Assembly (NCBI GenBank): GCA_016209985.1
Contig: JACQVB010000140.1
Location: forward strand, 1-37,938
Length of the DNA stretch: 37,938 nt
Direction: 5' to 3'
From: Gemmatimonadota bacterium
GTDB lineage: Bacteria > Gemmatimonadota > Gemmatimonadetes > Gemmatimonadales > GWC2-71-9
The notes under the pieces were generated by a model. It was given only the letters and a program-made list of their open reading frames with translations. It did no database searches and was not told the DNA's origin. The position numbers were made by a program, and so were the translations under genes. Numbering within the stretch: position 1 is the first letter of the stretch; each line of letters opens with the position of its first letter. Positions 5,902 to 27,587 of this stretch are shown piece by piece.

Positions 5902-8277
5902 ATGAAACGCTCTTGGCCATGGTTGGCCATAGGCTGGTTCTGGGCCGTACCGCTCGCGGCCCAGGGACTGCGCACCGAGAGCACCGGTCCGACCACGGCC
6001 CACATCATGGGCGTGTGCCGGATGCAAGGACAACCGGTGGAAGGCGTGCGGGTCCAGATCATCGACCAGAGCAACGTCGCGGTCACCGACGCGAGGGGGC
6101 ATTTCTTCCTCGGCCCCGTGCCGGTTGGCCGCTACCTGATCGAGACCCGCCGCATGGGGTTCCGTCCGGTGCGCCGCATGGTCGATCTCACGGCTCCCCG
6201 CGACACCATGATCGAGCTCGAGCTGGTTGCCGTGCCGATCACGGTGGACGAGATGGTGGTGGAGGCGATCGCGGAGGAGGGACATCGCACCCACGACCTG
6301 GCCGAGCCGCTGCGGGTGCCGCCGGTCGGCACCGGCAACGTCACCACGGTGACCTCTCGGCAGATACGGGAAGTCCACGCGCACGATTCCTGGGATCTGG
6401 CGCGGCAGACCACCGGCCTGGAGATCCACGAGCAGGGTCAGGGCCCGGGCATGGCCAGCAACGCCGTGATCCGCGGCTTCAGCTCGGATCATTCCGCCGA
6501 CCTGGCGGCCGTGGTCGACGGGGTCCCGCTCAACGAGCCGATCAACGGCCACGTGGAAGGCATCGCCGACTGGAACCTGATTCTCCCCGCCGCCATTGCC
6601 GACATGCAGGTCGTCAAAGGACCGATCAGCCTGCTCTTCGGGAATTTTGCCGCCGGTGGCGCCGTGAACATCACTACTCGCGCGTCCGCCCGCCGTCCCA
6701 CGCTGGATGTCGAGGCCGGAAGCTACGGTCAGGTCGGTGGGACCTATACCAACGGGTTCGAGAGCGGTCCCTGGGGCGCCTTTCTCGCGGTGCGCGGTGA
6801 GCGGCTCGGCGGCTGGCGTGACAACAGCGGATATCGAACCGGCCACTTCCTCGCCCGGGTCAACCGTCGGCTGTCGGATCGCGTCCTGGCCGATGGCGGC
6901 GTGCAGCTCTACAGCACGCGTTGGAGCTCTCCCGGTTATCTGTCGCTCTCGGACTTTGAAAGCGGCCGATTCACCACGGCGGCCGACCCCACCGACGGTG
7001 GCGACAAGTGGCGCGCCACCGCCCGCCTGGCCGCGCTGGTCAAGACCGAACAGCTGAGCTGGCAGACCACGCTGTGGGGATACTGGAACCGGTGGCAGCT
7101 CTTTCTCAGTCTTCCCGCCACCGGCAGCGAGATGGGCGGGCGCGGAGCTCAGACCGAAGATCGGGAAGTTCGCGATGCCTTCGGCGGGCGGTCGGTGGCG
7201 CGCTGGACCAGAGGCGCGCGTGAGTTCACGCTGGGTGTGGAAGGGCAACGCCAGCAGCCGGACTACGGCCGGTACGCCACCGACGGTCGTCTCCGCAACC
7301 TCACGCTTCGCCGGTACGAAGCCACCTACGTGAACGGCACCGGCTTCGCCGGTGTCGCGAGCACCTTCGGCCGCCTCCTGCGGCTCGAGGCCGGGCTTCG
7401 GGGCGACGTTCTCCAAACGCACAGCGCCGACCGGCTGGCGATCGTGCAGCCGGCCACCACGGCCCACAAGGTGTTGAGTCCCAAGGCGGGGGCGGTGATC
7501 TACGTCCGCAGCGACTGGCACCTGTACGCATCCGCGGCGCGAGGTTTCCGCACCGCGCCGGAATTCATTCGGGAACCAATGCTTCACCCGGTCTCCATCT
7601 GGTCGTATGAGGTAGGAACACGCTACGCGCGCGCGATGGTGGACGCCTCGATCAGCGCGTTCCGGGTGGAGAGCGATTACGAGCGTCTCTACAACCCGGT
7701 GACGCTGCGGATCGAGTCCGACGGGCGGAGCGTGCGGGAAGGAATCGAGTTTCAGGTCGCGTTCCGGCCGACGGCGATGTTGTCGTTCCACGGTCACTGG
7801 ACGGTGAACAGCAAGGGAACGCTGTTCCTGCCGGAGACTCCCGGCGCGGCGGCGGACACGACCATGTCCGGGCATCAACACGCGCCCGGAATTCCGTCGC
7901 TGCGGCAAGACGGCGGGATGGCCGGCGATTCGGGAACGGTACAGCACCACCCGATCGCCACCCTTGCCGGCAGCGTGCCGGGTGTAGCCGACTACATGGG
8001 ACAGGCCGGCATCATGTTGCGGCCGATCCATTTCATAGAAGCGAACGCCTGGATCACCCTGACCGGCCCGTATGTGCCGCTGGGCGAGCCGGGTATCGAA
8101 GTGCCGCGCCACACGCTTTCCAATCTCCAGTTTCGAATCTTCCTCGGACCCAGCACCGAAGTCGCGCTCGGGGTCGACAACATCTTCAACATCCGGGGAC
8201 CGGAATTCCGGGCCTCGGGGTTCCTGACGCCATGTCAGGCCCGCACGCTGCACCTCGGTGTCACGAGACAGGTCTGA
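5902..8277 (+). CDS. TonB-dependent outer-membrane receptor 1
   Basis: This 791-residue protein has a signal peptide ending PLAAQ (about residue 20), a carboxypeptidase-regulatory-like domain (about 30-115, VEGVRVQIID...VAVTDARGHFFLGPVPVGRY), a plug domain (about 135-255, including VDGVPLNEPINGHVEG and VVKGPISLLFGNFAAGGAVNI), then a 22-strand-type barrel to the end. It imports a ligand across the outer membrane using TonB energy. A loop near residues 655-690 is rich in His and Met (SGHQHAP, VQHHP), suggesting a metal ligand. The neighbouring copper enzymes (NirK, the CuA enzyme, SCO) make copper the best guess. GGAGG before ATG 5902 supports the start. Confidence 0.9.
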   Translation: MKRSWPWLAIGWFWAVPLAAQGLRTESTGPTTAHIMGVCRMQGQPVEGVRVQIIDQSNVAVTDARGHFFLGPVPVGRYLIETRRMGFRPVRRMVDLTAPRDTMIELELVAVPITVDEMVVEAIAEEGHRTHDLAEPLRVPPVGTGNVTTVTSRQIREVHAHDSWDLARQTTGLEIHEQGQGPGMASNAVIRGFSSDHSADLAAVVDGVPLNEPINGHVEGIADWNLILPAAIADMQVVKGPISLLFGNFAAGGAVNITTRASARRPTLDVEAGSYGQVGGTYTNGFESGPWGAFLAVRGERLGGWRDNSGYRTGHFLARVNRRLSDRVLADGGVQLYSTRWSSPGYLSLSDFESGRFTTAADPTDGGDKWRATARLAALVKTEQLSWQTTLWGYWNRWQLFLSLPATGSEMGGRGAQTEDREVRDAFGGRSVARWTRGAREFTLGVEGQRQQPDYGRYATDGRLRNLTLRRYEATYVNGTGFAGVASTFGRLLRLEAGLRGDVLQTHSADRLAIVQPATTAHKVLSPKAGAVIYVRSDWHLYASAARGFRTAPEFIREPMLHPVSIWSYEVGTRYARAMVDASISAFRVESDYERLYNPVTLRIESDGRSVREGIEFQVAFRPTAMLSFHGHWTVNSKGTLFLPETPGAAADTTMSGHQHAPGIPSLRQDGGMAGDSGTVQHHPIATLAGSVPGVADYMGQAGIMLRPIHFIEANAWITLTGPYVPLGEPGIEVPRHTLSNLQFRIFLGPSTEVALGVDNIFNIRGPEFRASGFLTPCQARTLHLGVTRQV

Positions 8278-8304
8278 GCCAACCCTTCGCTACGGAGTCG
8301 AGCC

Positions 8305-9036
8305 ATGTTTGCGCTTCAGCGCATTCCATTCTGGATGATTGCCCTGGCGGGGATCGTTGCCTGCTCGAATGACCCGACGGGAGCCGAGAATCTGACGATC
8401 GATTTCAGCGTGTCCCCGGAACACGCCTATGCCTTGAGCAACCAGGTCACCTTCACGGTTCTGGTGGAGGATGCCGACCGCCGGGTCGTCACCGATTTCG
8501 ACACCCTGGCCGTGGAGTACCGGGTCATGGGCGCTACCGGCTGGAAGCGGCTGACGCTGCAGCTCCAGACCGGGCTCTACCAGGCGAGCAGGATCTTCAC
8601 CACCAGCGGGGAACAGGAAGCACGGGTAGTGGGAAGACGGGTCGGGTCGACCGGAATGGCGGTGCTTCACCAGCCGTCGCAATCCGTGCTCCACGTCATG
8701 CGCTGGTACACCGACCAGGGCAATTACCGGATCGAGTTCGAGAGCACGCCGGGCGACATCAAGGTGGGCGATGCGCCGGTCCTCAAGTTCTGGATCTGGG
8801 GGAAAGCGGATGCCGCGGGCGTCCGGCCGCCGGTCACGGGACTCACCGCCGTGGTGCATTGCCACGAAGACAACGGAATGATGGCGGACCGAGCGCTCAT
8901 CGAGACCGCTCCGGGGGTCTACGAAACCAATGGCTGGACCTTCCAGACGGCCGGCGGAGCGTCGGCCAACTTGCGCTTCACGGCGGCGGACGGATCGACG
9001 GTTCGCGCCAAGGCCGTGCTGACGGTGGCGCCATGA
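8305..9036 (+). CDS. Putative lipoprotein between two TonB receptors
   Basis: This 243-residue protein has a lipoprotein signal (MFALQRIPFWMIALAGIVAC, with Cys20 as the acylated residue). The body appears to be two beta-sandwich repeats: residues 30-125 (VTFTVLVEDADRRVV, LQLQTGLYQASRIF) and 145-243 (APVLKFWIWGKADAAG, ETAPGVYETNGWTFQ). Both end in an xTxxGxYxxxxxF pattern like FixH/YtkA-type domains. A His/Met-containing strand (VVHCHEDNGMMADR) could bind a metal. Its stop overlaps the start of the second receptor by ATGA, so the receptor and lipoprotein are translationally coupled. Exact role unknown. Confidence 0.75.
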   Translation: MFALQRIPFWMIALAGIVACSNDPTGAENLTIDFSVSPEHAYALSNQVTFTVLVEDADRRVVTDFDTLAVEYRVMGATGWKRLTLQLQTGLYQASRIFTTSGEQEARVVGRRVGSTGMAVLHQPSQSVLHVMRWYTDQGNYRIEFESTPGDIKVGDAPVLKFWIWGKADAAGVRPPVTGLTAVVHCHEDNGMMADRALIETAPGVYETNGWTFQTAGGASANLRFTAADGSTVRAKAVLTVAP

Positions 9037-11348
9037 AGCGGGCTATTATCGCCACGCGCTGGCTATCCGCGAGCCTGTTCGCCATGGCACTATGGGCCGG
9101 TACCGTCGTTGCACAGACGGGCCGCATAGAAGGAAAGGTCTACGCCGACGACCGTGAGGAGCCCCTGGCCGGGGTGATGGTCGTGGTGAGGCCGAGCAAC
9201 CGGTCCGGCATCACCGACGCGCACGGAGCGTTCCGGATCACCGGCGTGCCGGCGGGCGAGGGTGTCGTGCTGGCCCGCTACCTCGGGCGCGAGTCACAGC
9301 AGGTCAGTGTCACGATGCCGGCGGGCGGGCTGGTCCAGATCGACTTCTCGCTCAAGCAAGCGGTCTTCCGGCTTTCCGACATCGTGGTGAGCGCGTCGCG
9401 GGAAGAAGAACGGAAGATGGAAATTCCGGTCGCCATCGGCGTGGTGGATGGGGGAGCGCTCCGCGCCGCGCAGCCGAGCCATCCGGCGGAAATCATGAAC
9501 CGGATGGCGGGCGTCTGGATCAACGTGACCCAGGGCGAAGGCCACATGGCGGCCATCCGCCAGCCGATCAGCACCGACCCGGTCTATCTCTACCTGGAAG
9601 ACGGGATCCCGGCGCGCTCCACCGGATTCTTCAATCACAACGCGCTGTACGAGATCAACGTGCCGCAGGCGGACCGGATCGAGGTCACCAAGGGACCGGC
9701 CACCGCACTCTACGGCAGCGACGCCATCGGCGGAGTGATCAACGTCTCTACCCGCGCCCCGTCCGCGCGCCCGCAGGTGGGACTGTCATTGGACGGCGGC
9801 GCCTACAAGTGGGGCCGGGCGCTCGCCACCGCCAGCAACAGCTGGGGCGGCACCGGCCTCCGGGCCGACGTGAACCTCACCCGGAGCGACGGCTGGCGCC
9901 GCGCCACGGATTATGACCGCCAGAGCGGTACGGTCCGCTGGGACCAGCAGGTGGGCACCGGCTCCCGGCTCAAGACGGTCGCCACCGCCTCGCGCATCGA
10001 CCAGCAGACGGCGGGGTCATCGGCCGTCTCGGTAAGCGATTACCTCAACAATCCGACCATCAACTACACGCCGATCTCGGTCCGCGAGGTGAAGGCGGTG
10101 CGGATCTCCACGGCCTTCGAGCAGGAAGGCTCGGCGCACCAGTTCAGCTTCACGCCATACGTCCGGTACGACTGGATGCGGGTGATCCCTAACTGGACGC
10201 TGACCTACGATCCGCAGGACTACACCACGCAGAACAAGTCGGTGGGCGCCCTGATCAAGTACCGCCGTGATCTCTCGCTGCTCCGCACCCGGCTGGTGGT
10301 GGGCACCGATGTCGATTTCAGTCCCGGCGGGCAGCACGAGAACGTCATCGTTCCGGTGCGGACCGGCAGCGTCTTCACGTCCTACACTGCGGGGCAGCAG
10401 ACCTACGATTACGACGTGACGTTCAACGGGGTGTCTCCGTACGTGCAGGCCGAACTCTCACCGATTGCCCGACTGCGGATCAATGCCGGCCTCAGGTGGG
10501 ATCATACCGGCTATGACTACACCAATAATCTGGGCCTGCTCACCACCGGCCGGTGGCGCCGGCCGGCCGATACCACGCTCTCCTATCATCACGTGAGTCC
10601 CAAGATCGGGGTCACCTACGAGTTCGCCGAGGGATTCAACGTGTTCGCGTCGGTGCGGCACGGATTCCGGGCGCCGTCGCAGGGCCAGCTCTTCCGGCAG
10701 GGATCGGCGGTGAACACGGTGGCGCTCCAGCCGATCAAGGTGAACGACTACGAGGCCGGGATTCGCGGCCGGGTGGCGTCTCGGCTCGACTACGACGTCA
10801 CGATTTACTCGCTGATCAAGACCAATGACGTCTTGAGCTACGTCCGCACCGACGGCTCGACCGAGCCGGTGAACGCGGGCCGCACGTCCCATCGCGGGAT
10901 CGAGACCGCTGTCGGAGTGCAGATGGTGCCGGGACTCAGGCTGGACGTCAGCTATTCCTACGCCAAGCATCGCTACGACGAATGGCAGCCGCGGTTCAAC
11001 GTGGATCTCTCCGGTAACGAGATCCAGAGCGCGCCGCGCCACATCGGGAATGCGGTGATCACCATCGCGCCCGTGCAGCTCAAGGGTGCGCGCCTCTGCT
11101 TCGAGGCGTCACGCATCGGCAGCTACTGGATGGATCAGGAGAACACCCACAAGTACTCGGGCCACAACCTGTTCAATCTGCGGGGAAGCACGCCGCTGGT
11201 GGCAGGTCTTTCGCTGTCGGGCCGAATCATGAACCTGACAAACAAGCGCTACGCCGAGATGTCGAGCTATACCGTGGCGCGCGGAGAGGAGTTCGCGCCC
11301 GGTATGCCGCGCCGGGTCTATCTGACCGTTCAGTACGACTTCCACTGA
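9033..11348 (+). CDS. TonB-dependent outer-membrane receptor 2
   Basis: This 771-residue protein begins at ATG 9033, overlapping the lipoprotein stop. The signal peptide ends GTVVAQ, followed by a carboxypeptidase-regulatory-like domain (about 30-115), a plug (about 130-245, with YLYLEDGIPARSTGF and RIEVTKGPATALYGSDAIGGVIN), and a barrel ending in the usual aromatic residue (VQYDFH). The plug is closer to the BtuB/FecA/OprC style than that of receptor 1, so the two are not simple duplicates. Imported ligand unknown; context favours copper or another metal used by the denitrification enzymes. Confidence 0.9.
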   Translation: MKRAIIATRWLSASLFAMALWAGTVVAQTGRIEGKVYADDREEPLAGVMVVVRPSNRSGITDAHGAFRITGVPAGEGVVLARYLGRESQQVSVTMPAGGLVQIDFSLKQAVFRLSDIVVSASREEERKMEIPVAIGVVDGGALRAAQPSHPAEIMNRMAGVWINVTQGEGHMAAIRQPISTDPVYLYLEDGIPARSTGFFNHNALYEINVPQADRIEVTKGPATALYGSDAIGGVINVSTRAPSARPQVGLSLDGGAYKWGRALATASNSWGGTGLRADVNLTRSDGWRRATDYDRQSGTVRWDQQVGTGSRLKTVATASRIDQQTAGSSAVSVSDYLNNPTINYTPISVREVKAVRISTAFEQEGSAHQFSFTPYVRYDWMRVIPNWTLTYDPQDYTTQNKSVGALIKYRRDLSLLRTRLVVGTDVDFSPGGQHENVIVPVRTGSVFTSYTAGQQTYDYDVTFNGVSPYVQAELSPIARLRINAGLRWDHTGYDYTNNLGLLTTGRWRRPADTTLSYHHVSPKIGVTYEFAEGFNVFASVRHGFRAPSQGQLFRQGSAVNTVALQPIKVNDYEAGIRGRVASRLDYDVTIYSLIKTNDVLSYVRTDGSTEPVNAGRTSHRGIETAVGVQMVPGLRLDVSYSYAKHRYDEWQPRFNVDLSGNEIQSAPRHIGNAVITIAPVQLKGARLCFEASRIGSYWMDQENTHKYSGHNLFNLRGSTPLVAGLSLSGRIMNLTNKRYAEMSSYTVARGEEFAPGMPRRVYLTVQYDFH

Positions 11349-11356
11349 CCGGCACG

Positions 11357-12925
11357 ATGCCTCGTAAGGCGACACTGCTCGCCACCGCCGCGTTTGTCCT
11401 CGCGGGGTGGCTGGCGGTGAAGGCGCTGACGGTCGGACGGGCGGGCGAGGCGGGCCGGGCGGGCGAGGCGGTCACGCCGCCCGACGTGCGCCTCGATCTC
11501 CTGTTCCTGCGTCTCGGTCTGCTGGCGATCGCGGTGGGCGCCGTCGCCGTGGTCATCCGGGCGAAGGCGCAGCGCGGCGTACCCGCGAAGGGTGCCGAGT
11601 CCCTCAACGCGGAGCCGGTGCTGCCCGGGCATGCCGGTGGCGTCAACCTGATGGGCTCGCGCGCCATCGGCAAACTGCTCGCGTCTCCCACGTTTCCCGC
11701 GGTCATCCAGGCGTTCAGCCTGGTACTTCTCGCGGCAGCGATCATCGCCGGCTTCATCGGACCGGCGACCGCGAACCAGAACCTCGGCACCGTCCTCATC
11801 TGGAGTCTCTGGTGGTCGCCGGTGATGATGCTCAGCCTGGTGCTCTTCGGCAGAGTGTGGTGCTTCGTCTGCCCGCTGGCCGGGCTCACTTCGGTGGTCG
11901 AGCGCTTCGGGCTCAGGCGCCGGGCACCGGAGTTCAATGGCACGATGCGCCTTGGGGTCTTCGTGGTGACGCCGCTCGCGTTCTCGGTGGTGGGGTTCAT
12001 CCTGATGCGCGCGCCGCTCTTCGGGACCAGCCATGCCATCAGTCAGTCGCCGTTGAAGACCAGCTTCTACTTCCTGGTCTGGGTCATGCTGGCCATCGGT
12101 GTGAGCCTGCTCTACCAGCGGCGCGCCTGGTGCCGCTACTTCTGTCCGGTGACAGCCGCGATGACGGTCATCTCTAAGCTGGCGCCGGTAGACATCGTGC
12201 ACGAGCTCACCGCCGGGGTCTCCAACTGCGTCACCAAGGAATACGGCGGCCATTACCTGACCAGCGACAAACGCTGCGTCTATTGCCTGCGGTGCACCCA
12301 GGCCTTTCCGCAGAGCGCGGTCCGGGTGCGGCTGCGCACCCCCGGCGCCGCCGTGCTGAGCGACCTCCCGCTGTTCGCCGAAGCCGCTATGGCCATCATT
12401 CTCGTGGCCATTTTCCCGATCGGGCACGGACTCAGCCAGATCCCGCCGTTCCGCCGGACCGCGTTCATCGAGGAGTACCGGCTGCCCTATTTTCTGGCCA
12501 TCGCCGGCAGCCTGATCGTCTATGCGCTGGTGAGCCGGCTCGCCGCGTTCCTAGGTCGGCGGGACTTTCGCGAGCTGTTCGCCAGGTTCGGCCCCGCCTT
12601 CGCGCCGATTGGCGTCCTGTTCTCCCTGGGAATGGCGGTGACCAGCGTCATGCGCGGCGCGGGCAACTGGCTCAACGTCGTGGCGCCCGTATTCGGTGGG
12701 TACCGGCACTGGACACCGAACTTGGTGGATCCGGCAACGATCTCCGCCTGGCAGCACTGGTCCATGAGCTGGATGACACCGATCGGCACGGTGTGGACGC
12801 TCATGATCATCGTGGCGCTGGCGCGCCGGAATAAGCTGCCCGCCGGCGGATGGATGCCGTTCGCGCTGCTTGCCGCTGGATTCGTGGTGGTGGCCCGGCT
12901 GCTCCCCATGCCGAACATGGGTTGA
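11357..12925 (+). CDS. Polytopic [4Fe-4S] membrane protein, NosR/NapH-like
   Basis: This 522-residue protein has about ten membrane helices. It carries two inner-membrane Cys motifs of the NapH/NosR/CcoG type, CFVCP (about residue 172) and CRYFCP (about 262), followed by a ferredoxin-like CVYCLRC near residue 312 that lacks the full second cluster. Proteins of this type pass electrons from quinol to periplasmic enzymes or help assemble copper enzymes; NosR does so for nitrous oxide reductase, but no nosZ is visible here. It starts eight bases after receptor 2. Residues 28-38 (GRAGEAGRAGEA) come from an 18-base tandem repeat at 11438-11471, probably a recent expansion. Confidence 0.8.
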   Translation: MPRKATLLATAAFVLAGWLAVKALTVGRAGEAGRAGEAVTPPDVRLDLLFLRLGLLAIAVGAVAVVIRAKAQRGVPAKGAESLNAEPVLPGHAGGVNLMGSRAIGKLLASPTFPAVIQAFSLVLLAAAIIAGFIGPATANQNLGTVLIWSLWWSPVMMLSLVLFGRVWCFVCPLAGLTSVVERFGLRRRAPEFNGTMRLGVFVVTPLAFSVVGFILMRAPLFGTSHAISQSPLKTSFYFLVWVMLAIGVSLLYQRRAWCRYFCPVTAAMTVISKLAPVDIVHELTAGVSNCVTKEYGGHYLTSDKRCVYCLRCTQAFPQSAVRVRLRTPGAAVLSDLPLFAEAAMAIILVAIFPIGHGLSQIPPFRRTAFIEEYRLPYFLAIAGSLIVYALVSRLAAFLGRRDFRELFARFGPAFAPIGVLFSLGMAVTSVMRGAGNWLNVVAPVFGGYRHWTPNLVDPATISAWQHWSMSWMTPIGTVWTLMIIVALARRNKLPAGGWMPFALLAAGFVVVARLLPMPNMG

Positions 12926-13138: not shown

Positions 13139-13306
13139 ATGACAGCTACGGAGCCCAATAAGCAGGAGGAAGCGATCCCGATTGGACAGCGGTTGTATGA
13201 CCGCTGGTTCCTGCTTCTCGTCGCCGGGATCGTCGTCATGGTCGCGTTCTACACCGGATGGGGAATCTGGGAACTGTTGACCCTCCCCCCCGCACCGCTC
13301 CCCTGA
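13139..13306 (+). CDS. Small single-helix subunit of the heme-copper enzyme
   Basis: This 55-residue protein has a charged N-terminus (TATEPNKQEEAIPIGQRLYDRW) and one membrane helix (FLLLVAGIVVMVAFYTGW). B-type heme-copper enzymes such as the Thermus ba3 oxidase carry a one-helix subunit IIa of similar size. A strong AGGAGGAGG site sits four bases before the ATG. It ends 12 bases before subunit II and opens the operon. Confidence 0.75.
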   Translation: MTATEPNKQEEAIPIGQRLYDRWFLLLVAGIVVMVAFYTGWGIWELLTLPPAPLP

Positions 13307-13318: not shown

Positions 13319-13903
13319 ATGAACACCGGTATCCAAGCCCCTCCCGGCATTTGGTGGAAGCCGGCGCACCGCTCGGAGAAGGTCTGGGTGGGCATCGCTT
13401 TCGCCTGGTGCATGGTGCTGTTCGCGATGATGCCGCTCTGGCACCTGAAGGGTGAGCAGAATCCCGCGGGACTCCGTTACAAGGTCGATCCGCAGCGCTA
13501 CATGGAGCGCACCCAGGAATTCATCACTGCCTATCAGGTCGGTGAAGACAACGGGATTCCGGTCGTCGCTCCGCCGCCGGGGAGCGAGGTCTACCTGGTC
13601 GGGATGATGTGGCGGTGGACGCCCGTGCTGAAGCTGCAGAAGGGCGCCACCTACAGGCTGCACCTCTCGTCCATGGACGTGAATCACGGATTCAGCCTCT
13701 ATCCGATCAACGCCAACTTCCAGGTGGTCCCCGGCTACGACTACGGCCTCAAGGTGACACCGACCGAAACCGGCGATCTGCGGATCGTCTGCAACGAGTT
13801 CTGCGGCATCGGCCATCACATGATGGTGGGCCGCGTGATCGTGGAGGATTCAGCCGCCGCTCCCGCCGTGCCCGCCGCTCCCGCCAACGGAGGTGCCGAA
13901 TGA
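13319..13903 (+). CDS. CuA-binding subunit II of a ba3-like heme-copper enzyme
   Basis: This 194-residue protein has one membrane anchor (about residues 22-41) and a periplasmic cupredoxin domain. The binuclear CuA ligands are all visible: His123 (VNHGF), Cys158, Glu160, Cys162, His166 and Met169 in CNEFCGIGHHMM. CuA accepts electrons from cytochrome c or a cupredoxin and passes them to subunit I. The Ala/Pro-rich C-terminus is a tail. GAGGAG lies before ATG 13319, and the stop overlaps the start of subunit I by ATGA. With subunit I it probably forms a CuA-type NO reductase. Confidence 0.9.
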   Translation: MNTGIQAPPGIWWKPAHRSEKVWVGIAFAWCMVLFAMMPLWHLKGEQNPAGLRYKVDPQRYMERTQEFITAYQVGEDNGIPVVAPPPGSEVYLVGMMWRWTPVLKLQKGATYRLHLSSMDVNHGFSLYPINANFQVVPGYDYGLKVTPTETGDLRIVCNEFCGIGHHMMVGRVIVEDSAAAPAVPAAPANGGAE

Positions 13904-15648
13904 CCGGCCTGGCCGAGAAGACTCCCGGCGCGGTGTCGCGCGCGGTATTCCGTATCTGCCCGACGACCGGGCTTAAGGTGAACAGCCAGGCCGACGCACT
14001 GATCAAGGCGCACGCGGTCGTGGCGACCGTTTCTCTCCTGGTCGGGGGCATCGCGGCCATCGGGGTGCTGCTCACCCGCTGGCAAGCGGTCCATCTGCTC
14101 CCCGCGGAATGGTTCTACCGCATTCTGACTATTCACGGGATGAGCATGCTCATCTTCTTCATCATCTTCTTCGAAATGGCGGTGTTGTACTTCGCCAGCG
14201 CGGTGCTGCTCAACAGCCGGGTCGCGACGCCCAAGCTGGGCTGGGCGGCGTTCGGCCTGATGGTGCTGGGCGCGGTGATGACCGAAGTGGAGATGTGGCG
14301 CGGCAAGGCCGACGTGCTCTTCACCTCCTATGTGCCATTGCGGGCCAGCCCGGCGTACTACCTGGGCATCATCCTGTTCGCGGTGGGCGCGCTCGTCACC
14401 GTGTGCATCTTCTTCGGCACCCTGGTGGTGGCGCGGCGGGAGAAGACCTATCGGGGGTCGGTACCGCTGGTCACCTTCGGCGCCATGACCGCGGCCATCA
14501 TCGCGGTGATCACGCTGGGCCACGGCGCCGCGATCTATATCCCCACGTTCCTCTGGTCCATCGGCGTCATCGGCAACGTGGACCCCGAGATGTATCGAAT
14601 GGTGTGGTGGGCGCTGGGTCACTCCTCGCAGCAGATCAACGTGGCCGCCATGGTCTCGATCTGGTACCTGCTGGGCGCGTTGACCGTGGGCGCCGTAGTG
14701 CTGAACGAGAAAATCAGCCGCACCGCGTTCGTGCTCTACATTCTGTTTATCTCCATGGCCTCGGCCCACCACCTGCTGGTGGACCCTGGCTTCGGCCCCG
14801 CGTGGAAGGTGTGGAACACCAGCTACGCGATGTACCTCGCGGTGCTGGCCAGCATGGTCCACGGGTTCACGGTTCCCGCCGGCATGGAAGTGGGCCAGCG
14901 GCTCCGCGGGTTCGGCAAGGGTCTGTTTGAATGGTTGCGGAAGGCGCCATGGGGCGACCCCGGCTTCAGCTCGCTGGTCTTCTCCGTGGTGGTCTTCGGG
15001 TTTGTGGGCGGCATCACCGGCGTCACCTTCGGCACCGAGCAGATCAACATCATCGCGCACAACACGCTGCGGATTCCCGGACACTTCCATGCGACGGTGG
15101 TCTCCGGTACCGCGATGGCCTTCATGGGACTCACCTACTACGTGATTCCGTTGATCTTCCGCAAACAGGTGGCGTTCTGGCCGCTGGCGAAGATCCAGCC
15201 GTATCTCTTCGCCATCGGCATGCTGGTGTTCTCGATGGCGATGACGTTCGCCGGAACCTTCGGCGTGCCCCGGCGGCACTGGGATATCAGCTTCACCGAC
15301 GCGCCCTTCGACGTGCAGTTCAGTCCGGCGGTGGCACTCCTGATCGGCGTGATGGCCCTGGGAGGGCTGCTGGCCGCCGCCGGTGGTGGGATCTACATCC
15401 TGGTGACCGTCTGGTCGGTCTTCTTCGGCAAGCCGCTGGTGGCGGGTGCGGTGACCGGCGTGCCCCAGGGCATCAGCAGCCCGCCCCGGTATCTGCCGGA
15501 AACGGTCAAGACCATCGAAGATGAGAATCGGAGCGCCTGGGGCATGGCGCCGGGAACTATGGTGCTGGTGTTCGTGTTCCTCGCGGCCTTCGTCACCTAC
15601 TACTTCGTCAACTGGAAGCTGTTGGCGGCGCTGTGGCGAATTCACTAG
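13900..15648 (+). CDS. Heme-copper catalytic subunit I lacking the active-site Tyr; probable CuA-type NO reductase
   Basis: This 582-residue protein has about 13 membrane helices. All six metal-binding histidines are in place: His79 and His397 for the low-spin heme, His395 for the high-spin heme, and His241, His290 and His291 for the second metal. In oxidases His241 begins HPEVY, with the Tyr cross-linked to the His and needed for O2 splitting. Here the block reads HSSQQIN, so Tyr is replaced by Gln245. Loss of this Tyr in ba3-like enzymes is known from NO reductases such as the CuA-containing enzyme of Bacillus azotoformans and related sNOR/eNOR-type families. With CuA in subunit II and nirK nearby, NO reduction is the best reading. 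Database tools would probably label it cytochrome c oxidase subunit I. Confidence 0.85.
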   Translation: MTGLAEKTPGAVSRAVFRICPTTGLKVNSQADALIKAHAVVATVSLLVGGIAAIGVLLTRWQAVHLLPAEWFYRILTIHGMSMLIFFIIFFEMAVLYFASAVLLNSRVATPKLGWAAFGLMVLGAVMTEVEMWRGKADVLFTSYVPLRASPAYYLGIILFAVGALVTVCIFFGTLVVARREKTYRGSVPLVTFGAMTAAIIAVITLGHGAAIYIPTFLWSIGVIGNVDPEMYRMVWWALGHSSQQINVAAMVSIWYLLGALTVGAVVLNEKISRTAFVLYILFISMASAHHLLVDPGFGPAWKVWNTSYAMYLAVLASMVHGFTVPAGMEVGQRLRGFGKGLFEWLRKAPWGDPGFSSLVFSVVVFGFVGGITGVTFGTEQINIIAHNTLRIPGHFHATVVSGTAMAFMGLTYYVIPLIFRKQVAFWPLAKIQPYLFAIGMLVFSMAMTFAGTFGVPRRHWDISFTDAPFDVQFSPAVALLIGVMALGGLLAAAGGGIYILVTVWSVFFGKPLVAGAVTGVPQGISSPPRYLPETVKTIEDENRSAWGMAPGTMVLVFVFLAAFVTYYFVNWKLLAALWRIH

Positions 15649-16619
15649 CTCCCAGGCTGCAAACCCGCGAAACGGCGGCGGCGGCAGCCCTCGCCTTCAT
15701 CGTCGTCGTCACCGTCGCATGGTGGTCGCTGGCGCTGTGGCCGGTGGCCGGCGCAGTACCTCCCTGGCTCGCCACCACGCGGGCCTGGTGTTTCGGATCC
15801 CAGCCCAATGGCCTTCCCAGCCCGGTGGGCTGGATGCTGCTGATCGGCGAGCCGATCGCCATGATCATCGCTCTGATGATCATCGCCGGTGATGCCGTGC
15901 CGGCGGCCATCCGTGCAATAGCTTCCCATCGCGCGGGCAAGATCACTCTGGTCGCGATCGTGCTCCTCAAGGTTGGCGGCCTGTCGGCCGCCGCCGTGCG
16001 GATCGCCCACGTGCAGCAGGCGGAACGGGCCGCGGCCGAGCCCGATCCCAGGACCATGCCACCGGCGGAGCGGCTCGACCGGCTCGCGCCTCCGCTAGCC
16101 CTGATCGATCAGCACGGGGATGCCATCTCACTGGCGCGGTTCAGGGGCCGCGCGGTGCTGGTCGCCTTTGCCTACGCTCATTGTGAAACGGTGTGTCCGG
16201 TGGTGGTGCGGGAGACGCTTAAGGCGCAGGCAATCCTCAACTCAGGCGGTCGGGCAGGCGGGCAGGCGGGCAGCCTGACCGAAGGACGGCCTGACCTCCA
16301 GGCATCCGCCGGCCCGCCCGCCCGCCGGCCCGCCGTCGTTTTCATCACCCTCGACCCCTGGCGTGACACGCCGGGCCGCCTGTCATCCATTGCGGATAGC
16401 TGGAAGCTGGGGACCGACGCCTTCGTCGCCAGCGGTGCGGTGCCCGACGTGGAACAGGTGCTCGATTCGTGGAACGTGGCCCGGACCCGCGACCCGGGGA
16501 CCGGACAGCTCACGCATGCGACACCCGTCTACCTGATCGCGCCCGACGGCCGGGTGGCATACCTGGTATCGCCCTTCGCCGATGCGATCGTCCGTGCGGC
16601 ACGGGAGCTCGACTCATGA
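15633..16619 (+). CDS. SCO1/SenC-type copper chaperone with an N-terminal membrane domain
   Basis: This 328-residue protein starts at GTG 15633, inside the end of subunit I. Residues 10-135 form three membrane helices, an unusual addition to SCO proteins. Residues 150-328 are a thioredoxin-fold SCO domain with the copper-binding CETVC motif (about residue 184) and the distal His in LTHATPVY. SCO proteins load copper into CuA, which fits the subunit II next door. Between the CXXXC helix and the VVFITLDPW strand lies a stretch of about 30 residues (GGRAGGQAGSLTEGRP...) encoded by an inverted GC-rich tandem repeat (16246-16335). The stop overlaps the Rrf2 gene by ATGA. Confidence 0.85.
   Translation: MANSLAPRLQTRETAAAAALAFIVVVTVAWWSLALWPVAGAVPPWLATTRAWCFGSQPNGLPSPVGWMLLIGEPIAMIIALMIIAGDAVPAAIRAIASHRAGKITLVAIVLLKVGGLSAAAVRIAHVQQAERAAAEPDPRTMPPAERLDRLAPPLALIDQHGDAISLARFRGRAVLVAFAYAHCETVCPVVVRETLKAQAILNSGGRAGGQAGSLTEGRPDLQASAGPPARRPAVVFITLDPWRDTPGRLSSIADSWKLGTDAFVASGAVPDVEQVLDSWNVARTRDPGTGQLTHATPVYLIAPDGRVAYLVSPFADAIVRAARELDS
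16246..16335. repeat. Inverted tandem-repeat insertion inside the SCO gene
   Basis: The left arm holds three tandem CGGGCAGG-like units (16246-16275), and the right arm holds the complementary GCCCGCC units (16307-16335). The design is the same as the intergenic hairpins elsewhere in the window, but here it stays in frame within a coding region and adds a loop to the protein. Confidence 0.6.
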
Positions 16620-17014
16620 TCCTCTCCCAGACCGCCGAACACGCTTTGCGCGCCGTACTGTACCTCGCCCAGCACGAGGAAGAGCTGGTCCGGGTGGGGG
16701 ATATCGCCGAGGCGCTCCGCATTCCGCGGAATTACCTGTCGAAGATCCTCCACCTGCTGGCCCGCGAAGGGGTCCTGGCATCGACCAGGGGGAAGGCCGG
16801 CGGCTTCCGCCTGGCGGTTCCGGCCGCACGGCTGCCGCTCATCTCGGTGCTGGAGCACTTCGACCGGTTCGACGAACGGCGCCAGTGTCTACTCGGCCGC
16901 CCGACGTGTAATGATCGCACCGCCTGCGCGGCTCATTCCAAGTGGAAAGGGACCGCGGAGCAGGTCGCCGGATTCTTCCGTGACACCACGGTTTCCGACC
17001 TCCTTTATCCCTAA
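16616..17014 (+). CDS. Rrf2-family regulator, NsrR-like
   Basis: This 132-residue protein has an N-terminal winged helix (about residues 1-65, with IPRNYLSKILHLLAREGVL) and three cysteines, Cys91, Cys98 and Cys104 (CLLGRPTC, NDRTAC). That is the arrangement that holds an Fe-S cluster in NsrR and IscR. NsrR senses NO through this cluster and represses NO-detoxifying genes. As the last gene of the probable NO reductase operon it is the natural candidate to control the 32-base repeats at 12946 and 13042. It starts at ATG 16616, overlapping the SCO stop. Confidence 0.85.
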   Translation: MILSQTAEHALRAVLYLAQHEEELVRVGDIAEALRIPRNYLSKILHLLAREGVLASTRGKAGGFRLAVPAARLPLISVLEHFDRFDERRQCLLGRPTCNDRTACAAHSKWKGTAEQVAGFFRDTTVSDLLYP

Positions 17015-17129
17015 AAGTCGCTTCACGACCATCTCACAGGCCCATCATGGCGCCCCCGGTTCCTTTAAGTTCGCGGCCATCGTCCGCTTCAGGGCTTTGC
17101 TAGGGGCTCAAACAGGGGGAGTGGTAGCT

Positions 17130-18380
17130 ATGCGTGTAACGAATTTCGGCGCTTCCGCGCTGTTCGTAGCGCTCGGTCTCACGGCCATTACCCCTTCGGC
17201 CGGGATGGCCTCCGCGCCGTACCGCGCCGGGTGCTTATGCGCCGCGGTCGGCGGCTCCGCATCGGTCTCGACATTCCTCCCGTCATGGAACGAGCCTGCG
17301 CTTCCCGGGTTGCGCGCATTCCCCGGTCCCGTGCCAGCCGTTCGCTCCAAGCTCTACGTGGCCAACGAGCTGGAAGGAAGCCTGACGGTCATCGACGCCT
17401 CGACCAACCAGGCCATTCGTCGCCTGGCCTTCTCCTACAAAGTGCCCAACTCCCCTTACGAGATGGTGTTCACCCCTCGTGGCGTGGTCGTCGCGCCTGA
17501 TGGCAAGTCCGTCTGGGTGACGGCGCCAATTCCGCAGTCCGACTGCGCGGGCGGCGAAGGCTTGTGTGACGGCCCGGCCATCCCCCCCGGGGCAATGGAA
17601 GAGATGGTGGTTATCGATCCCACCGCCGACACCATTCTCGCGCGCATTTCGGTGCCGAGTCTCGACGGCACCGGCGTGCACCTCTCGAGTGTCGTGATCG
17701 ACAAGGATTCGCGCTTCGCCTACATCGCGGCCAACGGTGCCAGCCAGATCGTACGGGTGGATGTTCAGACCCGGACGCTGGCCGGCCGAGTCGACCTCGG
17801 CGCCAACCGCGATCCGCAATCCATCCAGATCTGTGACGACAAGCTGGTGATCGCCAACGGCGCCGGGCAGAGCCTGTCCGTGGTGGAAATGTCCCGCGGT
17901 ACCGCCGAAGAAGTCCCCCTGGGCGGCGTCGCGATCCAGGCAGTGTGCAGCAACGATGCACGCTTCGTCTATGCTACCGTGTACGACAAGAAAGAAGAGG
18001 TCCGCTACGCGTTCGCGACCGGCGCGATCACGCACCTGCCGTTGCCTGCTGAAGCGGTGGGTCCGAGCCAGCTCGCGCTGTCCACCGACAACAAGAAGCT
18101 CTACGTACTGGACCAGGGCACGCTGATGGGTCGCGCGCTCAGCGATAAGATGTTCGAGCTGGATCCGCAGACCGGCGCCGCCAAGGCGACCATTACGGTG
18201 GGACGCAGCCCGCGCGGCCTGGTGCTGAGCGAGGACGGCAAGCTGGCCTATACCGCCAATCTGTATGACGGCAACATCTCGGTGGTGGATCTCGCCACCC
18301 GCAAGGTGGTGGCGTCGGTGGTGACCGGCACTGCTCCCCATGGAATCGGGGTCTGGCAGGCAGGCGCGTTGGTGCAGTAA
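17130..18380 (+). CDS. Secreted YncE-like beta-propeller protein
   Basis: This 416-residue protein has a signal peptide (MRVTNFGASALFVALGLTAI..., cleaved near residue 26-30). It is followed by seven or so propeller blades with the typical LYVANELEGSLTVIDASTNQ, FAYIAANGASQIVRVDV and LAYTANLYDGNISVVDLATRK repeats. Family members act in the periplasm; related propellers include NirF and the d1 domain of nitrite reductase, but heme d1 residues are not evident. It follows the Rrf2 gene by 115 bases and ends at a strong hairpin. An electron-transfer or copper-related accessory role is only inference. Confidence 0.75.
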   Translation: MRVTNFGASALFVALGLTAITPSAGMASAPYRAGCLCAAVGGSASVSTFLPSWNEPALPGLRAFPGPVPAVRSKLYVANELEGSLTVIDASTNQAIRRLAFSYKVPNSPYEMVFTPRGVVVAPDGKSVWVTAPIPQSDCAGGEGLCDGPAIPPGAMEEMVVIDPTADTILARISVPSLDGTGVHLSSVVIDKDSRFAYIAANGASQIVRVDVQTRTLAGRVDLGANRDPQSIQICDDKLVIANGAGQSLSVVEMSRGTAEEVPLGGVAIQAVCSNDARFVYATVYDKKEEVRYAFATGAITHLPLPAEAVGPSQLALSTDNKKLYVLDQGTLMGRALSDKMFELDPQTGAAKATITVGRSPRGLVLSEDGKLAYTANLYDGNISVVDLATRKVVASVVTGTAPHGIGVWQAGALVQ

Positions 18381-19706: not shown

Positions 19707-21143
19707 TTAATGGCCTGCGGCGGGCGCCTGCTCCGGGGCCGGCAGTTTGCGCGCCGCCGCGACATCGGCAGGTGTCACGTCATGCCCGGCGTTTTTCCAC
19801 TGGCTGTAGATGTAGGTCAGAGCACTGGCGACGTCCGGGTCCTCGAGCCGCAATGCCGGCATGACATTGTTGAACTTCGCCCCGTTCACCGTCACCTCAC
19901 CCGAGAGCCCGTGCAACACGACCCCGATGGCGCGCTGCTTGTCGGCGTTCAGGAAATCCGAGCCGGCGAGCGGCGGGAACACGTTGGCCAATCCCTGCCC
20001 CTCCGCCTGGTGGCAGGCCGCGCAGTTCTGCTGGAAGACCCTGCGGCCGGCCTCGACCCGCTGCTGTTTCGTCTGCGCCGGGGGAGCCGCGCGCCGGGGC
20101 GTCGCGACGACCTGCACGGCGCCGCCTTCCGGCTGGTAGACGTGCTCCATGAGCTTGCCGGAGTAGATCGCAACGTTGGTCGGGCCATCCGCCTTGATCT
20201 GCGCCAGCGCACCCTTGTTGAAGGCGCGGAAAATCGAGTGGTCCACCAGCAGATAAGTCCCCGGGACGTCCAGCTTGAACTCGGCGATCGCCGAGCCACC
20301 GGCGGGGATGAGCGTGGTTTGGAGATTGGTTTCGATATCGAAGCTGCCCTCGGCGTACACCCGGTCGAAGATCTCGCCGATCACGTGGAATGACGACACC
20401 AGGTTGGGACCGCCGTTTCCCACGAACAGCCGGATGGTCTCCCCCACATTGCCCTTCATCGCGTGGTCGCCCATCAGCGCGCCTACCGCACCGTTGAAGA
20501 CCACGTAATCGGCCTGCTCCCGCAGGGCCTTTTCCATACTGAAGCCCTGGTGACCCGTCTCTCCGAACCCGCCTGCTGTATAGAACTCACTCTGCATCAC
20601 GTAGTACTCACGATCGACCTTGGGCAGCCCGCCTTCGGGCTCTACCAGGATCAGGCCGTACATCCCGTTCGCCACGTGCATCCCCACCGGCGCGGTGGCG
20701 CAGTGGTACACGTACAAACCGGGATTCAGCGCCTTGAACGCGAAGACCGAGGTTTGACCCGGCGCCGTCACCGATGCGGCCGCTCCGCCGCCAGGCCCGG
20801 TGACGCCATGCAGGTCGATGTTGTGGGGAAACCGGCTCTCGGGGTGATTGCCCAGGTGCATCTCGACGTAATCGCCTACGCGAACCCGGATGAACTTGCC
20901 CGGCACCTGGCCACCGAAAGTCCAGAAGGTGTAGTCGACTCCGTCCGCCAGGCGGGTGGTGACTTCCTTGGTCTCGAGATGCACGATGACTTTGGTCGGG
21001 TGATCGCGGGTGATGGGCGGGGGAACGTTAGGCGCGTCGGTCAGAACCGCCGTCTCTTCGCCTTGAATTTCAGGCCCGGCCTGTGCAAAACAGAGTGCGG
21101 GCAGCGAAAATATGCAGAGCGCTAAAACGAAACGTGCTGGCAT
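19707..21143 (-). CDS. nirK: Copper nitrite reductase fused to cytochrome c
   Basis: This 478-residue periplasmic enzyme reduces nitrite to NO. After a signal peptide (cleaved near ALCFA) come two cupredoxin domains. Type 1 copper ligands are His107, Cys148, His156 and Met161; type 2 ligands are His112, His147 and His302; the catalytic pair is Asp110 and His253. Residues 360-450 form a C-terminal cytochrome c with C374-A-A-C377-H378 and a VMPAL axial Met, so an electron donor is built in. ATG 21143 follows GAGGA; a TTG ten codons upstream is less likely. It is 60 bases downstream of the porin gene, probably in one operon with it and the radical SAM gene. Confidence 0.95.
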
Positions 21144-21203
21144 CGTATCCTCACTAGAGTTGTACCGTTGCAAACCTTCAACCCCTTGTAACCACTCTAA
21201 GCG

Positions 21204-22613: not shown

Positions 22614-23060
22614 TCAGCTGATCCGGCGGCTGAGAGCGGAAATGCCTTCGGGGCCCAGGATGGACCGCGCCACCGGGAAAAGGACCTCATTCTCCCGGGC
22701 GATGTGCTCCCGCAGCAGCTCCACGATCTCGAGCGAGAGGCGGGCGATCTGGGTGTCCGGCGCCGGGCGTTCGAGTGCGGCTCGCAGCTCGGTCTCCAGC
22801 GCCCACAGCCGGCGGTGCTCGTCCTCGAAAATCATGGTGGGGGCGTCGTCCACTAGCAGCGGGAAGAGCGCCTCCTCTTCCTTCTCGTTGTGATCCTTGA
22901 CCGTGGTGGTCAGCACCTCGAGCACCGAACGGACCGTGTCCCGGTCGTCCGCGGTGGCCGACTGGTGTGCCAACGCCTGAGCCGCATGCTCCAGCCGCAA
23001 GAGAGCCTCGAGGGCCTCCTGGTGTTCCGCTTCCAGCACCCGGAAGGGATCCCGGCTCAC
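22614..23060 (-). CDS. Hemerythrin-domain protein
   Basis: This 148-residue four-helix protein has hemerythrin HHE-type motifs: EAEHQEALEALLRLEH, KDHNEKEEEALFPLL, EDEHRRLWALETEL and REHIARENEVLFPVA. These ligate a di-iron site that binds O2 or NO. GTG 23060 overlaps the had stop (GTGA), so it is the last gene of the benzoyl-CoA operon. Its likely job is to scavenge O2 or NO, or to repair clusters, near the oxygen-sensitive reductase. That role is inference from context. Confidence 0.85.
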   Translation of the reverse strand: MSRDPFRVLEAEHQEALEALLRLEHAAQALAHQSATADDRDTVRSVLEVLTTTVKDHNEKEEEALFPLLVDDAPTMIFEDEHRRLWALETELRAALERPAPDTQIARLSLEIVELLREHIARENEVLFPVARSILGPEGISALSRRIS

Positions 23061-24079
23061 GGCGTCACCACCCACCGCACGCCGCGGCCCTGCCGGAGAT
23101 TGTCGAGCCCCGCGTTGATCTCTTCGAGCGGCACGGTCCCGCTCACTACCGGGTCCAGTCGCAGAATGCCGGTGCGAACCAGTTCGATGATTTCGGGATA
23201 ATCCTTGCCGCCGCAGCCCAGGCTGCCTACCACCTCGAGCTCGTGATACATGATCTTGGCCACCGAGAGGGGCGCAACCTCGCTGGAGTACCCGATGACG
23301 CAGAGCCGGCCGCCCTTTCTCAACAATCCGAGCGCCAGCTCCAGCGTCTTGGGAGTGCCCACGGCCTCGAAGGCGACGTCCACCCCGCCGCCGGTGAGTT
23401 GGCGCACGGCTTTGTCCACCCGCGCCATGACGCCGGGATTGAAGACCTGCAGCGCGCCGAGATCGCTGGCGATCGCGAGCCGCGCTTCGTTGAGGTCGAT
23501 GGCGATGACGGTGGCTCCCGCCGCCACCGCGCACTGTACTACGTTGAGGCCGACACCACCGCAGCCCACCACCGCCACCGTGTCGCCCAGGGAGACCTTT
23601 CCCCGGTGTTTGACCGCGTGATAGGGCGTGGACAGCGCATCGGCGATGACACAGGCGGATTCCAGCGGGAGGTCATCCGGCAGCAGGAAGATCTCACCTG
23701 CCGGCACTACCACATACTCGGCGTAGGCGCCGTCCACGTTGTTGCCCAGCATCCGCAGGTTTTCGCAGAGATTGGCGCGTCCCTCACGGCAGTAGCGGCA
23801 GCGGCCGCACGACAGCACCGCCGGTATCAAGACCCGATCGCCTTCCTTGCGACCGTTCGGGCCCGGGCCAGTTTTCGCGACTATGCCCGCGGCCTCGTGG
23901 CCCAGCACCATCGGGGGCGCCTTGAACGTGGGTACCCCGTGATCGATGTAATGCAGATCGGTGTGACAGAGCCCGCATCCCGCCACCCGGACCAGCACCT
24001 CGCCGGCGCCGGGAGTCGGGGTGGGCACCTCGGTGACGTCGAGGGGCTGATGGGGCCCCCGAAAAACGGCCGCTTTCAT
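23057..24079 (-). CDS. had: 6-hydroxycyclohex-1-ene-1-carbonyl-CoA dehydrogenase
   Basis: This 340-residue zinc-dependent alcohol dehydrogenase family protein has the catalytic zinc ligands in GCGLCHTDLHYIDHG and GHEAAG, structural zinc cysteines in CGRCRYC...NLC, and the NAD-binding loop GCGGVGL. In the benzoyl-CoA pathway Had oxidises 6-hydroxycyclohex-1-ene-1-carbonyl-CoA to the 6-oxo compound with NAD+. Family membership alone does not prove this substrate; presence beside bcr, dch and oah homologues makes it very likely. Its start follows a GTCCCCTCTCC-type repeat that forms the leader. Confidence 0.85.
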   Translation of the reverse strand: MKAAVFRGPHQPLDVTEVPTPTPGAGEVLVRVAGCGLCHTDLHYIDHGVPTFKAPPMVLGHEAAGIVAKTGPGPNGRKEGDRVLIPAVLSCGRCRYCREGRANLCENLRMLGNNVDGAYAEYVVVPAGEIFLLPDDLPLESACVIADALSTPYHAVKHRGKVSLGDTVAVVGCGGVGLNVVQCAVAAGATVIAIDLNEARLAIASDLGALQVFNPGVMARVDKAVRQLTGGGVDVAFEAVGTPKTLELALGLLRKGGRLCVIGYSSEVAPLSVAKIMYHELEVVGSLGCGGKDYPEIIELVRTGILRLDPVVSGTVPLEEINAGLDNLRQGRGVRWVVTP

Positions 24080-24126
24080 GGCCTCACCCCTGTCCCCTCT
24101 CCCACACGGGAGAAGGGGACGAGAGA
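24080..24126. repeat. CCTCACCCCTGTCCCCTCTCC-type repeat before had
   Basis: CCCCTCTCCC pairs with the GGGAGAAGGGG that follows, giving a hairpin in the leader of had. The same unit recurs inverted at 24470-24511, so the DUF559 gene is bracketed by two copies. A related copy is at 18381. Confidence 0.55.
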
Positions 24127-24189
24127 GCGAAACTGAAGTGTTGAGGTGCCAGCCTGTGACATCTTTTTTTAGCTCCGAATCGCGGGAAA

Positions 24190-24510
24190 ATGGTGGCGAA
24201 GGTTTCCGCTGGCTGGAAACTGGTACGCGGACGCAGGTTGCTCGGCCTGAAGTTCAGACGTCAACGTCCGATTGGTCGCTTTGTGGCCGATTTTTATTGC
24301 CATGAGCTGAGGCTCATCCTCGAGGTCGAAGGTGGAATTCATGACAACCCCGATCGGTTAGCAGCGGACCAAGAGCGCACGACCATCCTTGAAGGCCTCG
24401 GATTCCGGGTCGTCAGAATTCAGAACGTGAACGCCACTGCCGATCATCTTCGACGCCTTATCGCCACTCTCCCGTCCCCCTCTCCCGTCAGGGAGAGGGG
24501 ACAGGGGTGA
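24190..24510 (+). CDS. DUF559 (restriction-endonuclease-like) protein, N-terminally eroded, inside the bcr operon
   Basis: The 106-residue frame matches the DUF559 pattern: GRRLLGLKFRRQRPIGRFVADFYC, then LILEVEGGIHDN, then GFRVVRIQNVNA. This is a small nuclease-fold family related to very-short-patch repair enzymes. The usual N-terminal helix is missing or frameshifted upstream of ATG 24190. It lies antisense to the operon, between bcrD and had, and its C-terminus ([13 protein letters not shown]) is encoded by the repeat at 24470. It overlaps the 3' end of bcrD by 23 bases. It looks like a repeat-borne mobile insertion. Confidence 0.6.
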   Translation: MVAKVSAGWKLVRGRRLLGLKFRRQRPIGRFVADFYCHELRLILEVEGGIHDNPDRLAADQERTTILEGLGFRVVRIQNVNATADHLRRLIATLPSPSPVRERGQG

Positions 24511-24511
24511 G
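24470..24511. repeat. Hairpin repeat at the 3' end of bcrD
   Basis: CCCCTCTCCC (24477-24486), a 4-base loop GTCA and GGGAGAGGGG (24491-24500) form a perfect 10-base stem, followed by ACAGGGGTGAGG. It encodes the last residues of both bcrD (LTPVPSP) on one strand and the DUF559 protein on the other. Confidence 0.65.
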
Positions 24512-25303
24512 GGCCAGTTTTCGCAGGCGCCGCTGCCCCAGCACCGCCGCCCCCACCGCGGCCACGAACTGCACCAGATCGCCGGGGGGGACGTTCACCG
24601 GCTTGCCCAGCTGCTGACGAACCACCTCGACCATCCGCTCGAACCGCAGAATCCCGCCGATCAGCGTGAACTCGGGTTCCATGCCGACCCGCTTGAGCAG
24701 CTGTACCGAGCGCCCGACCAGGGAGACGATGGCGCCGTGCATGATGTCGGCCGGCGCCACTCCCTGGGAGAGCTGGTTGATGACTTCCGACTCGGCGAAC
24801 ACCGCGCATACGCCCGAAATCGGCACCGCTTCTTTCGAAGTGGAAACCAGCGGTCCGATCTCGGTAGTGGAATACCCCATGTAGCGGGCGGTCTTCTCCA
24901 GAAACGCTCCGGTACCGGCTGCGCACTTGTCGTTCAGCCGGAACGACTTGACCTTGGCGGCCTCGGTGACCCGCGTGGCCTTCATGGTCTGGCCGCCCAC
25001 ATCGAGGATGGTGCGCGTCCCGGGGAAGAAGAATGCCGCGCCCCGCGCCGCCGCGGTGAGGTCGGTGACCTGGGCATCGGCCATGGGGGCCTGATGGCGG
25101 CCAAAACCGGTGTTCACCAGATAGCCGACGTCTTCCGGCTTGAGGCTCGCCTGCTCCAGCGCCTCCGCATACGCGCTCGCCGCCACGTCGGCGAACTTGA
25201 AGCCGGTGGGCTTGAGCACTCGCGCGACGATGTGGTCGTTCTCGTCGAGCACGATCACCTTGGTATAGGTGGATCCCAGATCCAGACCGGCGGTGTAGGT
25301 CAC
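24488..25303 (-). CDS. bcrD: Benzoyl-CoA reductase ATPase (activator) subunit, BcrD-like
   Basis: This 271-residue ASKHA-fold ATPase starts at GTG 25303, overlapping bcrA by GTGA. It has the phosphate-binding loop [11 protein letters not shown], cluster cysteines Cys127 ([11 protein letters not shown]) and Cys166 ([16 protein letters not shown]), and the GGILRF block. Two such subunits share one [4Fe-4S] and couple ATP hydrolysis to electron transfer in class I reductases. Its middle ([22 protein letters not shown]) is closer to the Thauera BcrD pattern than its partner is. The last residues (LTPVPSP) derive from a hairpin repeat, so the original end was probably near RRLRKLA. Confidence 0.85.
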
Positions 25304-26115: not shown

Positions 26116-26128
26116 GATTCCTCCAATG

Positions 26129-26226
26129 CAGCCGTCAGCCAACAGCCACGAGCCATCAGTGTTGCGGCGCCTGGATCCCCGCTCATGGCGACACACTGAC
26201 GGCTGACGGCTGATGGCTGATGGCTG
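26129..26226. repeat. Inverted repeat between bcrB and bcrA
   Basis: Arms of 34 bases at 26129-26162 and 26193-26226, built from GCTGACGG/GCTGATGG units, are complementary with about six mismatches. The right arm lies inside the bcrB reading frame and encodes its last residues ([14 protein letters not shown]). It could act as a processing or attenuation hairpin within the operon. Confidence 0.65.
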
Positions 26227-27496: not shown

Positions 27497-27518
27497 TGGG
27501 CTCCCATTTTCAATCGGG

Positions 27519-27587
27519 CGGACAGACGGACAGACGGACAGTCGGCCAACTCCGATGCGACCGTCTGACCGTCCGACCGTCCGACCG
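27519..27587. repeat. Inverted tandem repeat between bcrC and bcrB
   Basis: Repeated GGACAGAC units (27519-27545) face repeated CGTCCGAC units (27561-27587); the 27-base arms pair with about six mismatches. It fills most of the bcrC-bcrB gap. It has the same architecture as the hairpin at 26129 but a different repeat unit. Confidence 0.65.

Follow-up and report, generated by a model that had tools for sequence, protein, structure and literature searches.

This work addresses the function of a heme-copper enzyme that keeps every metal ligand of an oxygen reductase and carries a glutamine at the site of the cross-linked tyrosine. The gene lies in a window of 37,938 nucleotides (contig JACQVB010000140.1) from a Gemmatimonadota bacterium, and an earlier note had read it as a CuA-type NO reductase of the sNOR/qCuANOR kind, possibly a new subgroup, likely to be mislabelled as an oxidase. 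The gene cluster comprises the following features:

13139-13306, plus strand: 55-aa single-helix protein, just upstream of subunit II, in the small-subunit place of ba3-type operons
13319-13903, plus strand: subunit II with a CuA cupredoxin domain (CNEFCGIGHHMM); CoxB C-terminal domain, 42.6 bits, below the family cut-off
13900-15648, plus strand: heme-copper subunit I, very probably of an eNOR; 582 aa, six His and Gln245, clade support 100/100, AlphaFold model
14611-14640, plus strand: active-site stretch ALGHSSQQIN of subunit I (A238-N247), with the CuB ligand His241 and Gln244-Gln245
15633-16619, plus strand: SCO/SenC copper chaperone (Pfam SCO1-SenC, PF02630, E 2.6e-20), with CxxxC in the sequence
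16616-17014, plus strand: Rrf2-family regulator (TIGR00738, 111.4 bits, cut-off 73.3), with three Cys near the C terminus

Alignment of subunit I (residue numbers count the initiator Met) to the Thermus thermophilus ba3 oxidase showed that His79, His241, His290, His291, His395 and His397 are all present, that is, the six His ligands for the low-spin heme, the high-spin heme and CuB, and that Gln245 occupies the position of the cross-linked Tyr237; the cross-linkable Tyr that follows the first CuB His in B-type oxygen reductases is therefore lacking. Coordinates and numbering of these residues matched those given earlier exactly. The reported replacement of HPEVY by HSSQQ was correct as a replacement, but HPEVY is the A-type form and the proper counterpart is the B-type HP(I/L/V)VY. 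Each of the 28 Gln-type proteins compared has Gln at this site, as do 54/54 members of a second, larger alignment of relatives, with carriers that include Gemmatimonadota, Myxococcota, Pseudomonadota, Thermus and Thermomicrobium, among others; given this conservation, Gln245 is due neither to chance nor to a sequencing error. The AlphaFold model of subunit I (pLDDT 84.8) had a ba3 oxidase as its best fold match in the PDB, with a TM-score of about 0.76.

A Tyr relocated to another helix had been named as a point that would speak against NO reduction. At the cbb3-type position, which we take to be five residues before the HisHis pair, subunit I carries Ser285 and no Tyr, and to this extent the reading holds; on the other hand, Tyr256, Tyr280, Tyr309 and Tyr312 are invariant in the Gln-type set (second alignment), and a Tyr from another helix of subunit I could conceivably still reach the active site. 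Regarding the proton path, ba3 Tyr248, Ser309, Tyr244 and Thr312 are presumably K-channel residues; of these, Tyr248 and Ser309 are conserved in subunit I as Tyr256 and Ser318, Tyr244 is replaced by Val252, and Thr312 by His321, which is invariant among relatives. The invariance of Tyr256, Ser318 and His321 at K-channel positions across the Gln-type set, read from sequence alignments, fits a modified channel and is no proof of pumping. Separately, the Gln-type enzymes on Thermus thermophilus plasmids (L030:6983-8665 and L031:2983-4668) have GHFK rather than GHFH, so that Lys replaces His at one of the axial positions of the low-spin heme.

The residue at the Tyr site distinguishes the classes of the superfamily: oxidases have Tyr, cNOR and qNOR have Glu, sNOR and CuANOR have Asn, gNOR has Asp and eNOR has Gln (PMC8756737); the Gln signature is thus known and not new. 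Furthermore, PMC11388526 cites eNOR among the biochemically characterized NO reductases, with a characterization dated 2024 and a relationship to the B family, and in PMC8879329 an alphaproteobacterial 'ba3-a1' oxidase is re-named eNOR after a reported NO reductase activity. We built a tree of 52 sequences, which included Gln-type proteins of Thermus and Thermomicrobium and did not include the eNOR references of Rhodothermus marinus, Ardenticatena and Natronomonas. Within this set, the Gln-type proteins formed a single clade (100/100), sister to the Tyr-bearing B-type oxidases (B-type set 96/96) and on a long branch beside them (1.86 changes per site); subunit I is accordingly related to the B family and lies outside the B-type oxidases. 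The Asn-type sequences (L125 and L164-L168), which come from Thermomicrobium and Burkholderiales and were not assigned to a named Asn family, formed a 100/100 clade of their own, and both these and the A-type sequences were apart from the Gln clade. Identities within the phylum were mostly 65-83% for eNOR and 29-35% for B-type oxidases, with one protein at 45%. For reference, the eNOR class reportedly goes back to Hemp and Gennis in 2008 and to Murali et al. in 2024 (PNAS).

On the basis of the Gln signature, the B-family placement and the Thermus and Thermomicrobium relatives, we assign the subunit I gene with high confidence to eNOR, a predicted B-type-derived heme-copper NO reductase. Gln245, the tree and the published signature agree with the earlier view of a CuA-type protein that is not a normal oxygen reductase and bears the mark of a NO reductase family. 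The suspicion of mislabelling was also well founded: database relatives are annotated as 'cbb3-type' or 'b(o/a)3-type cytochrome c oxidase'.

Three other identities were weighed against eNOR. The sNOR or CuANOR/bNOR type proposed at the outset draws on the CuA subunit II and the adjoining SCO/SenC gene, which resemble norSY-senC operons (PMC6967387), but those enzymes have Asn where subunit I has Gln245, and subunit I does not group with the Asn-type proteins, which stand in their own clade; this identity was rejected as extremely improbable. A new NO reductase subgroup, or an enzyme that uses this scaffold for another reaction, could appeal to the long branch of the Gln clade and to the fact that NO activity of subunit I is a prediction; SSQQ is, however, the common form among relatives (48/54), for which reason a subgroup defined by it was dismissed, and NO reduction has been reported for a published member of this family, as cited in PMC11388526 and PMC8879329, leaving this alternative very unlikely. 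We grant equally little to oxygen reduction despite the loss of the Tyr, the enzyme then being a high-affinity oxidase, a role suggested for the Nitrosomonas sNOR: every heme and CuB ligand is present, the model predicts a ba3 fold, and heme-copper centers may favor O2, as argued in PMC6967387, yet Tyr is lacking at both the cross-link site and the cbb3-type site, the clade is separate, NirK is encoded close by, and the same genome already has two true, Tyr-bearing B-type oxidases with HPLVY (L001 and L002).

Related clusters also contain divergent homologues. In many proteobacterial eNOR clusters (L118:11193-12629, L159:3540-5426, L158, L112, L120 and others) a second heme-copper-like subunit was observed, with the heme His present and the CuB HisHis pair absent (GGGHxxQF, AHYH); this protein appears degenerate, and a sequence search found no PDB relative for it. 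Two Burkholderiales loci (L161 and L163) encode an odd heme-copper homologue with GHNMHY, in which Tyr-His replaces HisHis and Tyr replaces the heme a3 His.

The remainder of the operon is consistent with an eNOR. A cupredoxin CuA subunit II adjoins subunit I, and its motif CNEFCGIGHHMM bears out the complete CuA site described before. We surveyed 80 eNOR loci from named records, 44 of which had sufficient flank: the CuA motif family occurred in 79/80 loci, a stretch homologous to the 55-aa protein in 76/80, and SCO in all 44 well-flanked loci. ATGA overlaps join subunit II to subunit I and SCO to the Rrf2 gene, and the SCO start lies within the end of subunit I; co-transcription from subunit II to Rrf2 is supported by these overlaps, as the earlier note held for both the chaperone, also backed by its PF02630 match, and the regulator. 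The latter belongs to the Rrf2 superfamily, but the earlier label 'NsrR-like' is not established, since it scored 44 of the 182 bits set as the cut-off of the NsrR profile.

With respect to denitrification, one further gene of the window is of direct relevance:

19707-21173, minus strand: NirK copper nitrite reductase with a C-terminal cytochrome c domain (TIGR02376, 362 bits, cut-off 296)

This gene lies 4 kb from the eNOR, on the opposite strand, adjoining a TIGR04053 radical SAM gene; a similar set occurs on a Thermus plasmid, where a NirK-matching multicopper oxidase, a TIGR04053 radical SAM protein and an Rrf2 gene accompany the Gln-type enzyme, and in Ardenticatena maritima eNOR and NirK share one operon (PMC4653789). 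The host genome, of which the window represents contig 93, is a draft of 4.64 Mb in 289 contigs, and its closest named relatives are Gemmatimonadota MAGs, in keeping with a Gemmatimonadota host. A COX1 family search of this draft found no cNOR or qNOR, leaving eNOR as the sole NO reductase candidate found in the genome, and a profile search found no NosZ above cut-off, which for the draft genome points to N2O as the likely end product of NO reduction. The beta-propeller protein at 16911-18380 was considered as a lactonase-type N2O reductase and rejected (42 of 700 bits).

Other genes of the window were noted in passing. A 152-aa membrane protein at 1548-2006 (minus strand) has an AHTH motif, resembles the first third of a heme-copper subunit I and gave weak COX1, NnrS and DUF2871 matches. 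The plus-strand genes at 5902-12925, situated between the eNOR operon and the cytochrome b module described below, encode two TonB receptors, a YtkA-like protein and an Fe-S membrane protein resembling NapH/NosR, possibly for copper uptake. Finally, benzoyl-CoA reductase-like, dienoyl-CoA hydratase-like and ring-opening-enzyme-like genes (22614-37055, minus strand), with scores below the equivalog cut-offs, suggest anaerobic aromatic degradation beside the denitrification genes.

The eNOR class and its Gln signature are already known; less expected is a cytochrome b module that accompanies eNOR almost constantly, represented in the window by two adjoining genes:

3114-3695, minus strand: 193-aa protein with one membrane helix and a beta-sandwich, two invariant Cys; adjoins the cytochrome b fusion
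3692-5281, minus strand: fusion of cytochrome b, two 4Fe-4S and FlpD, with four conserved heme His; conserved eNOR partner

The fusion has invariant heme His at positions 80, 94, 181 and 195, two 4Fe-4S motifs and a FlpD part with four conserved Cys; in a second version of the module, Fer2-FAD-NAD(P) domains replace the Fe-S/FlpD part. The 193-aa protein was modelled confidently (pLDDT 90), matched no Pfam family and gave no convincing PDB fold match (best E 0.026, TM 0.34). A cytochrome b module was present in 44/44 well-flanked loci, as the FlpD version in 41 and the Fer2-FAD-NAD(P) version in 10, some having both, and the 193-aa protein in 43 of the 44. In the window, 8 kb of sequence with a TonB receptor and other genes separates the module from the eNOR operon; the two adjoin each other directly in most Gemmatimonadota relatives.

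Genome-wide counts indicate that the two are co-inherited. In an even draw of 298 Gemmatimonadota genomes, eNOR was found in 66, cytochrome b-FlpD in 67 and both in 64 (Fisher p 8e-59, a value that is too small owing to shared ancestry); among the cytochrome b-only exceptions, L196 and L197 lie at contig ends, and in G138 (L195:5858-9170) cytochrome b-FlpD and its small partner stand beside a heme A synthase-like (CtaA-like) gene, with no eNOR. In Burkholderiales, the flavin version occurred in 18/19 genomes with eNOR versus 1/231 others, the single exception having the module on a short contig with SCO. The module was absent from the stretches or genome examined of the early branches Thermus, Thermomicrobium and G223, and therefore goes with the main eNOR clade. 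The link between eNOR and cytochrome b was not found in the literature searched, which excluded the 2024 PNAS eNOR paper.

We propose for the cytochrome b module a role dedicated to eNOR, in either electron supply or maturation. Our tentative reading for supply is that eNOR in many bacteria would form part of a larger unit, in which cytochrome b-Fe-S/FlpD or cytochrome b-Fer2-FAD-NAD(P), with the membrane-anchored beta-sandwich protein, feeds it from quinol or directly from ferredoxin, NAD(P)H or a similar cytoplasmic donor, the two swappable modules setting the donor for NO reduction. A role of the same proteins in assembly rather than turnover, with their electrons going to heme A synthesis or to copper reduction at SCO, is likewise plausible if short of probable: heme O synthase genes occur in 36/80 loci and heme A synthase-like genes in 23/80, which would fit a part of the module in inserting heme or copper, and the G138 pair adjoins its CtaA-like gene where eNOR is missing. 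Nevertheless, two bis-His heme sites and long Fe-S or flavin chains seem to exceed the needs of a maturation reductase, and the co-occurrence of the module is with eNOR.

Following the electron-supply reading, the cytochrome b-FeS-FlpD protein would act as an electron-transfer partner dedicated to eNOR, taking electrons from quinol or a donor in the cytoplasm, moving them to the outer side and delivering them to CuA. Entry into eNOR is most likely through the CuA of subunit II, presumably loaded by SCO, and 2 NO would most likely be converted to N2O at a heme-CuB center devoid of the cross-linked Tyr, with NO putatively supplied by the NirK encoded nearby; the signal sensed by the Rrf2 regulator is probably NO or the iron-sulfur state.

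Since annotation routinely labels eNOR genes as cytochrome oxidases, the N2O-forming capacity of Gemmatimonadota and of many Pseudomonadota is easily undercounted, and the presence of the clade in 66 of the 298 evenly drawn Gemmatimonadota genomes gives the scale. If the cytochrome b module is indeed a dedicated donor or maturation system, the question of how eNOR is fed becomes directly testable, and the module would provide a second marker gene separating true eNOR from oxidases.

Compared with known systems, the enzyme shares with eNOR the Gln, the six His, the cupredoxin CuA subunit II, the sister position to B-type oxidases and a nearby NirK; no essential difference was seen, the host phylum here being Gemmatimonadota and the named references being absent from the tree. 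With the T. thermophilus ba3 oxygen reductase (1EHK) it has in common the fold, the ligands and the K-channel Tyr248 and Ser309, at about 25% identity, and differs in the replacements Tyr237 to Gln245, Tyr244 to Val252 and Thr312 to His321. A CuA subunit II is common to sNOR (norSY-senC) and bNOR/CuANOR, and the SCO gene is shared with sNOR; both, however, have Asn in place of Gln and belong to a separate clade. As for the partner, its four heme His, two 4Fe-4S motifs and FlpD Cys are those of cytochrome b6, MvhD (FlpD) and ferredoxin modules, but it is a single fused protein genetically tied to eNOR, and its second version has Fer2-FAD-NAD(P) domains instead.
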